DNA of 38,907 bases from Anaerolineae bacterium (GTDB lineage: Bacteria > Chloroflexota > Anaerolineae > Aggregatilineales > Phototrophicaceae). The notes under the pieces were generated by a model that saw nothing but the letters and a program-made list of their open reading frames with translations, was not told where the DNA came from and did not search any database. Location: contig JAUZRW010000149.1 in the NCBI GenBank assembly GCA_030950085.1, positions 1-38,907 on the forward strand, given 5' to 3'. Position 1 is the first letter of the stretch, and every line of letters begins with the position of its first letter. Shown piece after piece: positions 7,633 through 24,188 of the stretch. The translations under genes were made by a program, and so were the position numbers.

Positions 7633-7682
7633 ACAAGTGCTTAGTTTCTAGTGTTGAATCTGATAAGTGCGTAGAAAAAGTG

Positions 7683-7724
7683 TCACGTAAAGCCGCAAAG
7701 GGTGAAAGGCGCAAAGAAAATTAC
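7683..7724. repeat. purine-rich intergenic repeat (GCAAAGG type)
   Basis: The plus strand carries the imperfect short repeat GCCGCAAAGG / GGCGCAAAGAAA. It belongs to the same loose family as the strings near 8240, 16855, 16925, 22375 and 29345. It abuts the stop of the DUF1801 gene. Confidence 0.45.
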
Positions 7725-8137
7725 GACTTCGTTTCTCGCATGTGTTGTGCTGATTGCTGAACCAATTCACGCAGCACATCCATATCGACATCTTCTGTTT
7801 TCTTGATATAGAGACAGCCTTTGCCTGTTTTGTATTTTCCGAGTTTGGACAATAAGTTATCGGAGTTCTCAGCATTTGTCAGATTATAGAGTGTAATGGC
7901 TTGTTTGCGTGGCGAAAATCCTACAAGCATCATATCACCTTCGCGCCCTGACTCATATTTATAGTGATAACTACCAAAACCGACGATGCTTGTTCCCCAC
8001 ATTGTTGCTTGTTCACCGGTGACTTCTTCCATCATTTTCATGATAGCCAAGGAATCTTCACGCTTCTTTTCAGGTTTAACAGCATTGAGAAACACCATTA
8101 CGTCGCCGTCGTTTGCTCTTGTTTTATTCTCAGACAT
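7721..8137 (-). CDS. DUF1801 domain-containing protein
   Basis: 138 residues, cytoplasmic, single domain. The layout matches small DUF1801/YdhG-like proteins: a short N-terminal helix (GDVMVFLNAVKPEKKREDSLAIMKMMEEVTG), then ATMWGTSIVGFGSYHYKY, then GREGDMMLVGFSPRKQAITLYN and a C-terminal helix starting DVDMDVLRELV. Family members are common, often encoded singly, and have no settled biochemical role. The ATG at 8137 begins MSENKTR with GGGGCAG eight bases upstream. It is transcribed away from the liv cluster and converges on the carboxylase gene. Confidence 0.82.
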   Translation of the reverse strand: MSENKTRANDGDVMVFLNAVKPEKKREDSLAIMKMMEEVTGEQATMWGTSIVGFGSYHYKYESGREGDMMLVGFSPRKQAITLYNLTNAENSDNLLSKLGKYKTGKGCLYIKKTEDVDMDVLRELVQQSAQHMRETKS

Positions 8138-8206: not shown

Positions 8207-8310
8207 CAGTTCACCTAGCTATGAACTCAGAATAATTTGAACCGCAGAGGACATAGAGATTCAAGTTCAAAACCCTTTGCGTTAGGCATTTCTCACAGAT
8301 AGCTGAATAG
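8207..8310. repeat. repeat element with GCAGTTCACCTA core and purine-rich string
   Basis: The left part matches 29301-29322 at most positions. The right part read on the minus strand (CTATCTGTGAGAAATGCCTAA) resembles 29313-29335 on the plus strand (CTATCCATGAGAAAATGCC). The segment therefore seems to carry pieces of one repeat in both orientations. Age and mobility are unknown. Confidence 0.45.
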
Positions 8311-16825: not shown

Positions 16826-16894
16826 ATGGTTAACAGTGCAAATGCTGATATTGAACCGCCAAAACGCGAAGAAAAACGACGGAAAGTCAGGTGA
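16826..16894 (+). other. 22-codon mini-ORF in purine-rich repeat
   Basis: Encodes MVNSANADIEPPKREEKRRKVR. AGGA lies nine bases before the ATG. It resembles the mini-ORF at 22346 (M-N-DIE-PKR-EKR pattern) over repeat DNA. It may be a translated repeat or chance; see findings. Confidence 0.2.
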
Positions 16895-16920
16895 TTTTTA
16901 TGAGGATTATAGTGCAAAAT

Positions 16921-16957
16921 CCCCTCTGCGCCTCTGATTCTCCGTGTCTCTGCATTA
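16921..16957. repeat. purine-rich repeat, minus orientation
   Basis: The minus strand reads GCAGAGACACGGAGAATCAG followed by AGGCGCAGAGG, nearly identical to 22399-22432 on the plus strand (GCAGAGAAACGGAGAATCAG, AGGCGCAGAG). The two copies flank livF and the permease in opposite orientation. Confidence 0.6.
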
Positions 16958-16959
16958 AG

Positions 16960-20892: not shown

Positions 20893-22323
20893 ATGTCATT
20901 TATTTCACCCGAATACATCATCTTTTTTTCTATCGTATTGCCCTTATTCTTTTGGATGCCACATCGCTATCGGTGGATGCTACTGCTTGTAATGAGCTAT
21001 TTCTTCTATGCCTATGGCAATATTCAGTATGTGCCATTGATTGCTTTTAGCACGATTGTAGACTACATCGCCGCACGGATGATTCATCGCAGTGAGGCAG
21101 AATCAGAACGCAGACTATGGCTTGCAGCAAGTATTATTGTCAATCTTGGTGTGCTATTTTTCTTCAAATACTTCAACTTTTTCAATGAGTCCAGTGCAGC
21201 CGTTCTGGGGTATACCCCATTCACACATAATCTAGTGCTGCCGATTGGTATCTCGTTTTATACCTTTCAGTCCATGTCTTATACGATTGATGTTTTTCGG
21301 CGCAAGATGGATGCTGAACCGCATTTGGGTATTATGGCAACCTATGTCGCCTTTTTCCCACAGTTGGTCGCGGGTCCCATTGAACGGGCGACGAATCTCC
21401 TGCCACAATTTCATGTCAAAAAATTATTCAATGAAGACCGTGCTGTTGCTGGATTGCAACAAATTTTATGGGGGTTTTTCAAGAAAGTTGTCATTGCAGA
21501 CCGAATAGCCATTTACGTAAATGCGGTTTACAACAATGTCGATGACCACTCCGGCTGGACACTGATAATAGCGACATTTTTTTTCGCGTTTCAGATTTAT
21601 TGTGACTTTTCCGGCTATTCAGACATTGCGATTGGCACAGCGAAAATCATGGGTTTTGACTTGATGCAGAACTTCCGCCAACCCTATTTCTCGCAATCCA
21701 TCCGTGAGTTTTGGACGCGCTGGCATATTTCACTTTCGACATGGTTTCGGGATTATGTCTACTATCCTCTGGGCGGTAATCGCGTGCCACTACTGCGAAA
21801 TCTATCGAATTTGCTGATTGTGTTTTTGGTCAGTGGATTATGGCATGGGGCAGGGTGGACCTTCGTGATTTGGGGCGCTTTACACGGGGCAGGTGTCGTG
21901 CTGATTGTTCTGTTACGGCACTTCAAAATTGAAATTATGTCGGGAAAATCGCTCTTGATGCTTGTTCTGCGCGTTGTGGTGACCTTCGTTTTTGTCGATT
22001 TTGCATGGATATTCTTCCGCGCTAATTCATTCGCTGATGCACAGTACGTTGTTTCGCATTTGTTTGTCTTTGATGGCTCGAATATCTTTGCCCCATTTGA
22101 AGGCGCACTGCTCGGTATTCAGACTGAGTTTTATCTGTCATTTGTGCTGATTGGTTTTTTGATACTGGTGGATGCCTTTGATGTTAAATTATCGTTGGAA
22201 CGTTTTCTCATCCGTGTGCCACTCGTGCCACGATGGGGCGCGTATTGGTTACTTGGCGCGGCTGTCATATTTTCTGGACTGTATGGAAGCGGCGCAGGGC
22301 AGTTCATCTATTTCCAATTCTGA
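20893..22323 (+). CDS. MBOAT-family O-acyltransferase (AlgI/DltB-like)
   Basis: 476 residues, about 10-12 membrane helices. Family signatures in order: PIGISFYTFQSMSYTIDVFR (about 117-136), FFPQLVAGPIERATNLLPQF (about 154-173), YCDFSGYSDIAIGTAKIMGF (about 236-255), FRQPYFSQSIREFWTRWHISLSTWFRDYVYYPLGGN (in parts, about 261-296) and GLWHGAGWTFVIWGALHG with the presumed catalytic His318. Such proteins pass acyl groups across the inner membrane to a glycan acceptor, usually with an SGNH partner such as AlgX/AlgJ, PatB or DltD. A candidate partner is the gene at 23064. Acceptor polymer is unknown. The ribosome site (AAGGATTAGTGAG) is loosely spaced. Confidence 0.9.
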   Translation: MSFISPEYIIFFSIVLPLFFWMPHRYRWMLLLVMSYFFYAYGNIQYVPLIAFSTIVDYIAARMIHRSEAESERRLWLAASIIVNLGVLFFFKYFNFFNESSAAVLGYTPFTHNLVLPIGISFYTFQSMSYTIDVFRRKMDAEPHLGIMATYVAFFPQLVAGPIERATNLLPQFHVKKLFNEDRAVAGLQQILWGFFKKVVIADRIAIYVNAVYNNVDDHSGWTLIIATFFFAFQIYCDFSGYSDIAIGTAKIMGFDLMQNFRQPYFSQSIREFWTRWHISLSTWFRDYVYYPLGGNRVPLLRNLSNLLIVFLVSGLWHGAGWTFVIWGALHGAGVVLIVLLRHFKIEIMSGKSLLMLVLRVVVTFVFVDFAWIFFRANSFADAQYVVSHLFVFDGSNIFAPFEGALLGIQTEFYLSFVLIGFLILVDAFDVKLSLERFLIRVPLVPRWGAYWLLGAAVIFSGLYGSGAGQFIYFQF

Positions 22324-22345
22324 TATAATGAGAATAACCTGACTT

Positions 22346-22435
22346 ATGGCGAACATTACAGATATTGAAAATGAAGCGCCAAAACGCCAAGAAAAGCGTA
22401 ACGCAGAGAAACGGAGAATCAGAGGCGCAGAGTAA
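22346..22435 (+). other. 29-codon mini-ORF in purine-rich repeat
   Basis: Encodes a very basic peptide beginning MANITDIENEAPKRQEKR and ending RIRGAE. It is aligned with the 16826 mini-ORF in both DNA and frame. No good ribosome site is seen. The DNA at 22375-22432 is the best-preserved purine-rich repeat in the window, so this is probably a repeat rather than a gene. Confidence 0.2.
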
Positions 22436-22437
22436 AA
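22375..22437. repeat. purine-rich repeat (GCCAAAACGCCAAGA / GCAGAG type)
   Basis: Consecutive imperfect units GCGCCAAAACGCCAAGAAAA, GCGTAACGCAGAGAAACGG and AGGCGCAGAG. It matches 16855-16890 at its left end and the reverse complement of 16921-16957 at its right end. Confidence 0.6.
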
Positions 22438-22496
22438 TAGTTCTTCATGCTGTTCTAAGTTTTTTCTGATGCTACATAAATTGTGGAGATGACATC

Positions 22497-23057
22497 ATGG
22501 TTCTGGATAGAAAACGTATGGCAGTCGATGATTTTGAGGATTTTGTCGATTTGCCTCAAAATAATGACAAATTATTTGAATTTATCGGGGGGGAGATTGT
22601 TGAAGTGCCTTCTAATCCATATTCGTCCAAAATTTCTGCACGAATCACTGTATTTATCGGTATGTACTTGCTTCAAAATGATATTGGTCATCTGACAGGC
22701 GAGGCGGGGGGCTATAAAGTTTCTGGCGAACGTTATACGCCGGATGTTGCCGTCATTTTATACGACAAACAAAAGAAACTCGCACGCAAAGGGTATAACG
22801 ATAATCCACCAGATTTAGCAGTTGAGGTCATGTCGCCATCGGATAATGATGATAAGCTACGAATTAAAATTACAAACTATCTCGCTGCTGGGACGATTGT
22901 ATGGGTTGTTGACCCCGACGAGGAAGTGGTCGAAGTCTATGAACTTGGAAAGCCTGTTCGCATTGTCGAGAAAACAGGCACATTAACAGTCGAATCTATC
23001 TTGCCCAGTTTTAAGTTAGCTGTGAAAGATATTTTCCCCCCAAAAGAGGATGATTAG
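22497..23057 (+). CDS. Uma2-family (DUF820) restriction-endonuclease-fold protein
   Basis: 186 residues. Family pattern: N-terminal FEFIGGEIVEV (about 27-37), a helix around ISARITVFIGMYL, YTPDVAVILYD with Asp83, then PPDLAVEVMSPSDNDDKLRIKITNYLAAGTIVWVVDPDEEVVEVY (in parts), in which Glu110 is the second acidic position of the PD-(D/E)XK-type core. Uma2 proteins occur in many copies in cyanobacteria and Chloroflexota; cleavage activity is presumed from fold and biological role is unsettled. GGAG lies eight bases before ATG. It separates the MBOAT gene from its likely SGNH partner and ends only six bases before the latter, so all three may be cotranscribed. Confidence 0.88.
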   Translation: MVLDRKRMAVDDFEDFVDLPQNNDKLFEFIGGEIVEVPSNPYSSKISARITVFIGMYLLQNDIGHLTGEAGGYKVSGERYTPDVAVILYDKQKKLARKGYNDNPPDLAVEVMSPSDNDDKLRIKITNYLAAGTIVWVVDPDEEVVEVYELGKPVRIVEKTGTLTVESILPSFKLAVKDIFPPKEDD

Positions 23058-23063
23058 TTCTTC

Positions 23064-24188
23064 ATGACACTGCTGCGAAAAATCGCACTCTATGCACTAC
23101 CATTTGCATTACCGTTTTTACTGCTGACAGGGGCATTGACCTATATTGGCGAGTCGTTGCCACTCAGCGAGGTGCTGCGTTTACAAGCCGGTGATACGCC
23201 TGTTTTGTATCGTGTCCGATACGGCAATCGTGACCAGCGTTATAAGCGCATGGCAGTTGACTATTTTCAGCCTGATGTGATGATGATTGGTTCATCGCGG
23301 GTGCTACAGTTTCGCTCCGATTTCATGAATCTCAACCCTGATGCTTTTTATAATGCGGCGGCTCCGGCATGGCAGTTGGGAGAAATTAGTCGTTTGTTGT
23401 TTACCATGAATCATCGACCCGATATGATTATTTTGGGCATTGATGATGCGTGGTTCAATGCCGATTATGGTGGCGACCCGATTGTGCAGCCGCCAACGTC
23501 TGATTTTGACCGCTTTTTTATTGTCAATCGGACAGTGATACAAGAGATATTAGACGGTGAAACGCTCGATTTGCGAAAATTGCTATCACGCGAAGAACCC
23601 GGTGGGAGTGGGGGACTTGCGCTTGGTTCACGGGCGATTATTGATGGACACGGTTTCCGTAATGATGGCAGCGAACAATACGGCGATTTTTTAGTAGCCC
23701 AGCATCTATGGCAGCCCAATATGCGTGGGCTACACATAGGCTGGTTTGAAGAAGGCGCGGAAATGTATGTGCGTGGCGATGTTGTTGATGATGAGGCGAT
23801 GCAGCAGTTACGGGCTATTCTCGACTTTGCACAAGAAAATGATATTCTCGTTATCGGACTCTATCCGCCGTATATGCCGTCGCTCTGGCAACGACTCGAA
23901 AACAGCGCCGACCATAGCTATTTGCGTGATGCGACAATAGAAGTCGAATCTCTATTCGCTGAATATGATTTTCCCTATTTTGATTTTCACAATGGGGCAG
24001 CTGTCGGCGCAACCGACGAAGACTTTTTCGATGGTTGGCATTCGTCGGAGCGCATCGCTGCCCAAATGTTCATCAATATAGCGCGTGAAGTCCCACAGCT
24101 AGAGCAGTATAGTGACCTTGACGCGCTACAAGAAATTGTCAACACAGCATCGGATACCTTCGGAGTGTTTCCATTTACGGCACAGTAA
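23064..24188 (+). CDS. SGNH/DltD-like membrane-anchored protein, likely MBOAT partner
   Basis: 374 residues with an N-terminal membrane helix (about 8-28), placing the rest outside. Block I is VMMIGSSRVLQF (Ser near 77-78), FYNAAAPAWQLGE gives the block II-like Gly/Ala turn, and the C-terminal FFDGWHSSERIA supplies the Asp323-x-x-His326 pair typical of SGNH hydrolases and DltD. The GSSR form is used by DltD and by the acyltransferase partners of MBOAT proteins. I infer it transfers or receives the acyl group delivered by the MBOAT protein. It starts six bases after the Uma2 stop with a poor ribosome site, suggesting translational coupling. The fold also allows a plain esterase. Confidence 0.75.
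   Translation: MTLLRKIALYALPFALPFLLLTGALTYIGESLPLSEVLRLQAGDTPVLYRVRYGNRDQRYKRMAVDYFQPDVMMIGSSRVLQFRSDFMNLNPDAFYNAAAPAWQLGEISRLLFTMNHRPDMIILGIDDAWFNADYGGDPIVQPPTSDFDRFFIVNRTVIQEILDGETLDLRKLLSREEPGGSGGLALGSRAIIDGHGFRNDGSEQYGDFLVAQHLWQPNMRGLHIGWFEEGAEMYVRGDVVDDEAMQQLRAILDFAQENDILVIGLYPPYMPSLWQRLENSADHSYLRDATIEVESLFAEYDFPYFDFHNGAAVGATDEDFFDGWHSSERIAAQMFINIAREVPQLEQYSDLDALQEIVNTASDTFGVFPFTAQ

Follow-up and report, generated by a model that had tools for sequence, protein, structure and literature searches.

Does the Uma2 gene that stands between an MBOAT acyltransferase gene and an SGNH-like gene in an Anaerolineae bacterium share in the work of its neighbors, or is it a passenger among them? The locus lies in the window, by which we mean the whole stretch of 38,907 nucleotides that was analyzed. 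A sequence-only reading had given the gene order as MBOAT, Uma2 and SGNH-like, with Uma2 six bases from the SGNH start, and both statements were confirmed. The three ORFs are present on the same strand, with 173 bp between the MBOAT stop and the Uma2 start and 6 bp between the Uma2 stop and the SGNH start. The features are as follows.

20893..22323, + strand: MBOAT acyltransferase, 476 aa, with the C-terminal acyl-shuttle motif FIYFQF (PF03062, DltB chains)
22365..22480, + strand: decayed copy of a dispersed hairpin (MITE-like) element, placed by genomic-copy and profile matches
22438..22449, + strand: left copy of a direct repeat of 12 bp, TAGTTCTTCATG, within the hairpin element
22497..23057, + strand: Uma2 (COG4636) PD-(D/E)XK-fold protein, 186 aa, intact ORF (PF05685)
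23055..23066, + strand: right copy of this 12-bp repeat, covering both the Uma2 stop and the SGNH start codon
23064..24188, + strand: predicted SGNH (DltD-/PatB-like) acyltransferase partner, 374 aa, with an N-terminal helix (3-28)

The eight proteins around Uma2 that were scanned with Pfam belong to ordinary families, and no transposase was seen among them. The Rfam scan of the junction gave no match at gathering scores. Promoter-like sites (11, with 7.6 expected) and terminator-like sites (8, with 4.0 expected) were left out of the argument.

The MBOAT protein matched PF03062 in Pfam (E 9e-26, 91.4 bits, cut-off 27), and the PDB sequence search matched it to the DltB structure chains 8jem and 6bug (E about 1e-25). 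Its last six residues, FIYFQF, fit the FXYXXF motif, which was found at the C-terminus of 14 of the 15 MBOATs examined. The only one without this end is another copy in the same genome (L036), and no SGNH relative was found beside it. PMC12148441 describes acylation of the tyrosine in a C-terminal FXYXXF motif, which is then the donor for the SGNH partner. Because this shuttle has been reported and the motif ends nearly all of the MBOATs examined, a Tyr-shuttle acyltransferase pair is the best reading of the predicted function of the MBOAT and SGNH proteins.

The SGNH-like protein gave no match at E 0.001 against Pfam and NCBIfam, and the single match in the PDB sequence search (E 1.6) was discarded as irrelevant. 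In the alignment of 15 sequences, G76, S78, D323 and H326 are invariant. The AlphaFold model (pLDDT 90.5) aligned with SGNH enzymes at Z scores of about 13, namely PatB 8tlb (13.3), PatB 7tjb (13.0) and DltD 6pfx (12.9, over 226 residues with an rmsd of 4.5); rows within 1 Z are ties, and PatB and DltD are not separated by these scores. The E-values of Foldseek were weak (best 7.8e-4): a designed scaffold was the single match to reach E 0.001, and acylhydrolases came next; Foldseek taken by itself counts against our explanation at this point. The SGNH assignment rests on the 15-sequence alignment and on the AlphaFold model, which is a confident SGNH-fold model. The model has an N-terminal helix at residues 3-28, which may span the membrane, to judge by its hydrophobic letters.

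The MBOAT and SGNH proteins are thus a well-supported candidate, by sequence and model, for an acyltransferase pair of the PatA/PatB kind. As in PatA/PatB and other MBOAT-SGNH pairs, the MBOAT ends in FXYXXF and the Ser-Asp-His SGNH protein is separate and has an N-terminal helix, and as in PatA/PatB-type pairs the two genes are adjacent in most SGNH-bearing relatives. However, the SGNH protein is 11-14% identical to the PatB structures in the fold alignment, and Uma2 lies between the genes here. The pair also resembles DltB/DltD, as the MBOAT matches DltB structures and the SGNH model aligns with DltD 6pfx. In contrast to the Dlt system, the MBOAT scored 163.2 bits with the DltB equivalog TIGR04091, below the cut-off of 375, and the MBOAT carries the shuttle tyrosine motif in its own sequence, whereas Dlt has a separate DltX. 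The proposal of the sequence-only reading that the two proteins form an envelope O-acylation pair is supported, as a prediction, by the C-terminal motif of the MBOAT, by the fold and triad of the SGNH protein and by the conserved adjacency.

The gene order in relatives was analyzed by a profile search with SGNH in 98 family genomes, which, with a threshold of E 1e-30, gave 23 places distributed over 21 genomes. MBOAT is the direct neighbor of SGNH at 16 of the 23 places, and 17 places lie in an MBOAT cluster without another kind of gene between; the 17th is in G030, where two tandem SGNH genes precede the MBOAT and this is the first of them. SGNH precedes MBOAT at two of the 16 places (a copy on contig C70 of the same genome, and G030). 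Also among the 16, the SGNH gene of G132 has an in-frame stop and the MBOAT of G133 is split over two ORFs. The MBOAT beside SGNH in G060 has 258 aa only. Where MBOAT is followed by an unbroken SGNH gene, the junction ranges from an overlap to 11 bp. MBOAT also adjoins SGNH in a truncated pair on G001:C453 and in G094, a genome from the same taxonomic order.

Six other places remain. Uma2 was found between MBOAT and SGNH only in the window (1/23). In G010, an SH3-GDSL gene occupies the junction that Uma2 occupies in the window. No MBOAT was seen on the contigs of the G002 and G028 SGNH genes, and the places in G108 and G001:C470 are cut by the contig start. A scan of the genome's contigs for SGNH gave one locus (L107), where the available stretch begins inside the SGNH gene. 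In a class-wide search, in which five candidates per genome were scored, 11 of 396 genomes matched. Three of these are not members of the family, and in flanks of about 1.5 kb around their SGNH genes we found no MBOAT and no Uma2.

These results show that the MBOAT-Uma2-SGNH trio is not conserved, and a functional trio with conserved order was rejected on this gene order. The sequence-only reading had named, as what would speak against such a trio, MBOAT and SGNH directly adjacent in relatives, Uma2 absent and repeats at the junction. The adjacency without Uma2 is what most SGNH-bearing relatives have; as for the repeats, the junction carries one decayed element and a 12-bp direct repeat. The other view in that reading, that Uma2 is a passenger, is supported by the comparison with the relatives, most of which keep the pair without Uma2. 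We conclude, with a probability of roughly 85%, that Uma2 is a passenger interrupting a two-gene MBOAT-SGNH acyltransferase operon in the lineage of this genome. Some observations count against this conclusion. Uma2 is intact, and its distance of 6 bp from SGNH would permit co-translation, and the pair is not invariably adjacent (G010, G002, G028 and the three genomes of another family). The comparison includes no close sister genome, and its nearest SGNH homologues are about 50% identical; it therefore does not fix when Uma2 was inserted, in which direction the change ran or where precisely the inserted piece begins and ends. The state without Uma2 is presumably the older one.

The Uma2 protein matched PF05685 (E 3.3e-27, 95.5 bits, cut-off 27) and aligned with the structures 3ot2, 9y1l, 1wdj and 6okh. 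The top row of the structure search, 7ue2, consisted of repeated weak stretches and was treated as spurious. A PD...E...migrated-Lys site is present (D83, E110 and K124), to which putative roles are given after PMC551604. In the sequence alignment, K124 meets Lys in 1wdj, 9y1l and 6okh, and Asn in 3ot2. In this genome, 26 Uma2 genes score above the Pfam cut-off, and none of them shares a contig with the genome's other MBOAT matches. Of 101 genomes, 56 contain matches to the window Uma2 (E 1e-25 or better), and in the Uma2 tree the window copy groups with Uma2 of five other family genomes (six rows, 96/82).

The neighborhoods of the closest other Uma2 genes were compared in 20 regions, representing 21 of the 22 best matches outside this genome (G028:C1350 was left out). 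In the region of L122, the gene calling kept an opposite-strand ORF in place of the Uma2 ORF. None of the 20 regions holds an MBOAT or SGNH relative. One neighbor family is common to four of the regions and is not shared by the other 16, so that near relatives do preserve some Uma2 places. In the account of Feder and Bujnicki (2005, PMC551604), Uma2 is a proliferating, horizontally moving family without recurrent neighbors except tandem copies. The putative selfish PD-(D/E)XK genes of that account (Uma2/COG4636) are matched here by many dispersed paralogues, by the lack of common neighbors for the window copy and by the lack of a transposase among the scanned neighbors. Thus, the window fits this description, and the window Uma2 is best read as a solitary lineage-specific insertion of the kind proposed for the family in 2005.

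It is somewhat doubtful that Uma2 is a solo anti-phage or toxin-like gene lying in the operon by chance, an idea compatible with the passenger reading. The PADLOC candidate models PDC-S03 match Uma2 (best E 2.9e-18), and Makarova 2009 (PMC2701414) calls Uma2 a likely solo toxin. However, PDC-S03 is a candidate only, the proteins of ordinary families around Uma2 offer no support (the PADLOC scan covered the trio only), and the high number of Uma2 genes in one genome also speaks against this idea.

Another of the genome's Uma2 genes is placed between carA and carB. Of the 98 family genomes, 92 were found to have carA, at 93 places in all, and 61 of the 93 loci (that of this genome and the next 60 by rank) were examined. 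Uma2 starts within 2.2 kb downstream of carA at 16 of the 61 loci, on the carA strand at 15 of them, and no Uma2 was found at 2.2-8 kb downstream of carA in 256 kb. The carA-strand copies come from 15 genomes with seven genus codes. At the 11 loci where carA, Uma2 and carB were all seen, Uma2 lies between the other two, in one case overlapping carB by ORF call. carB was not seen at five Uma2-bearing carA loci, and for two of the carA-strand ones among these about 8 kb was covered. At carA loci without Uma2, carB was seen at 34, within 100 bp in 23 and further away, up to 5.3 kb, in 11.

In the Uma2 tree, 14 carA-strand copies group at 99/99, and 15 with the copy of this genome, more weakly, at 86/65. 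This group is apart from the window Uma2, and the opposite-strand copy L195 falls outside it. When a carA-linked Uma2 was the query against the 98 genomes, the 18 best matches, all with at least 99 bits, included 15 at carA; the other three (G050, G048 and G103) were not found at carA, and the flanks of G103 were without carA or carB. Conserved Uma2 neighborhoods therefore exist and are visible by the neighborhood method used here. The carA-linked clade is a positive control in favor of the passenger reading, in that a conserved neighbor is detectable, and it also counts against it by showing that operon positions of Uma2 can be kept. The recurrent carA neighbor of this separate Uma2 clade in the bacterial family departs from the earlier published statement of virtually random Uma2 placement (PMC551604, where only tandem copies recur). 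Among open-licence PMC papers, none was found with Uma2 and carbamoyl, or with Uma2 and MBOAT.

A rather doubtful extension is that Uma2 genes are single-gene mobile units that settle in short operon gaps and break neither gene, most staying solitary, as in the MBOAT-SGNH operon of the window, while the carA-carB insertion became fixed and has since been inherited beside carA in seven genera. If this were true, what began as a selfish gene would end as a component of operons, and the window would represent an early stage.

The sequence-only reading had also seen a repeat at 22375, immediately before Uma2, and had taken it to favor the passenger view. The repeat is real; it is not a local tandem repeat but one copy of the dispersed hairpin element. 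The stretch 22365-22432 matches other genomic copies strongly and 22444-22480 weakly (E 0.1 to 0.8), and the element profile matches 22392-22460 (E 1.3e-15). A 33-base core, at up to 3 mismatches, has 61 + 59 = 120 copies in the genome, and the pattern read backwards has none. Core matches occur in 5 of 100 other genomes, 1 to 6 in each. Folding gives long hairpins for four fuller copies (z -2.3 to -3.9) but none for the window copy (z +0.17). A link of the element to GxxExxY genes was considered and set aside; the genome has only two of these (PF13366). Within 200 bp, the element was found at 5 of 27 Uma2 places and at 43 of 257 control ORFs (counted in Uma2 regions of this genome). Since Uma2 places are no richer in it than other ORFs, the element is no mark of Uma2, and we rejected the repeat as a sign of Uma2 mobility.

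Terminal inverted repeats and target duplication were looked for around Uma2, and a 12-bp direct repeat and the hairpin element, the latter on the left side only, were found. One copy of the direct repeat is in the element and the other at the Uma2 stop/SGNH start. With up to 1 mismatch allowed, it matches twice in the window, where 0.13 matches are expected. Direct repeats at least 12 bp long flank a single one of 379 control ORFs, and at the other 26 Uma2 places the longest flanking repeat has 10 bp. Since the repeat was noticed first and tested afterwards, it is taken as a possible trace of the Uma2 insertion only.

Arrival of Uma2 as cargo of the hairpin element, or by recombination involving it, would suit an element that ends 16 bp before the Uma2 ATG and shares this repeat with the Uma2/SGNH junction. 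However, there is no enrichment of the element at Uma2 and no room for it at the right end, and the repeat test, post hoc in itself, found nothing comparable at the other Uma2 places; we regard this route as unlikely. It is very improbable that Uma2 was recruited in this genus into a lineage-specific functional trio, for instance to regulate by binding nucleic acid, or through coupled translation with SGNH: its intact ORF, strand and spacing and the lineage kept just downstream of carA (15 genomes, 7 genera) would allow it, but Uma2 occurs at a single one of the 23 SGNH places, falls outside the carA-linked clade, and lies beside a pair with its own shuttle motif and triad, for which the published model (PMC12148441) needs no third protein.

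Under the preferred reading of Uma2 as a passenger, the acyl group would come from a donor in the cytoplasm, acyl-CoA if PatA is a guide, and the MBOAT would place it on the tyrosine of FIYFQF. The group would then pass to Ser78 of the SGNH protein, presumably membrane-anchored, which would transfer it to an extracytoplasmic acceptor. The genes are probably transcribed as an operon, in which Uma2, an intact gene for a putative nuclease, would take no part in acylation. Its arrival could plausibly have been through break repair or short-homology recombination, and the bracketing 12-bp repeat may be the trace.

The locus is ordinary in kind, an acyltransferase pair of a known type interrupted by a solitary gene of a known type. 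The tempting lead of a Uma2 role in surface-glycan modification is removed as unsupported. A probable Tyr-shuttle MBOAT-SGNH pair is described in a Chloroflexi family, and the window gives an example in which a solitary Uma2 interrupts a gene pair that relatives keep together. In the carA-linked Uma2 lineage, the conserved neighborhood makes a role of Uma2 testable.

MBOAT and SGNH form the probable acyltransferase pair. In relative G010, a gene for a protein with SH3 and GDSL-hydrolase domains lies between the two (region L023, 7931-9337). Thus, the MBOAT-SGNH junction took another insertion there. In relative G030, two tandem SGNH genes are followed by a single MBOAT gene (L026, 6876-10687). 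The own genome, GCA_030950085.1, possesses a second pair in the reversed gene order on contig C70 (L034, 10420-13074), and the MBOAT encoded there also ends in FIYFQF, as does the window MBOAT.

The core of the dispersed hairpin element was found in about 120 copies in the own genome, whereas no more than six were found in any of the 100 other genomes searched. When the own contigs were read by eye, two apparent subfamilies differing in their end sequences were seen, one with the ends TGTAGAGTC...GATTCTACA and the other with TATTCACCT...AGTGAATA. Example copies lie at 9004-9148 of L036 and 751-884 of L062. Besides the copy before Uma2, the window holds three more matches to this element:

16850-16959, minus strand, E 3e-15
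8216-8281, minus strand, E 2.9e-6
7652-7737, plus strand, E 0.005

The window Uma2 protein (22497-23057) matched PADLOC PDC-S03, which are candidate defence models. Uma2 genes akin to it adjoin one common large protein of approximately 930-990 aa in four regions, L108 (G044), L110 (G012), L112 (G029), and L117 (G041), and these four genomes share one genus code.

A separate Uma2 lineage is linked to carA. Uma2 was located a short way downstream of carA in 16 of the 61 carA loci examined: in the own genome (L060, 6293-6886, contig C7) and in L192, L194, L195, L197, L198, L201, L207, L212, L220, L225, L230, L240, L242, L244, and L249. The carA-linked Uma2 precedes carB in all 11 loci where carB was seen. 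Only the Uma2 of L195 is on the strand opposite to carA and falls outside the carA-linked clade. The carA-linked subfamily looks like a single insertion that has been retained by descent across seven genera.
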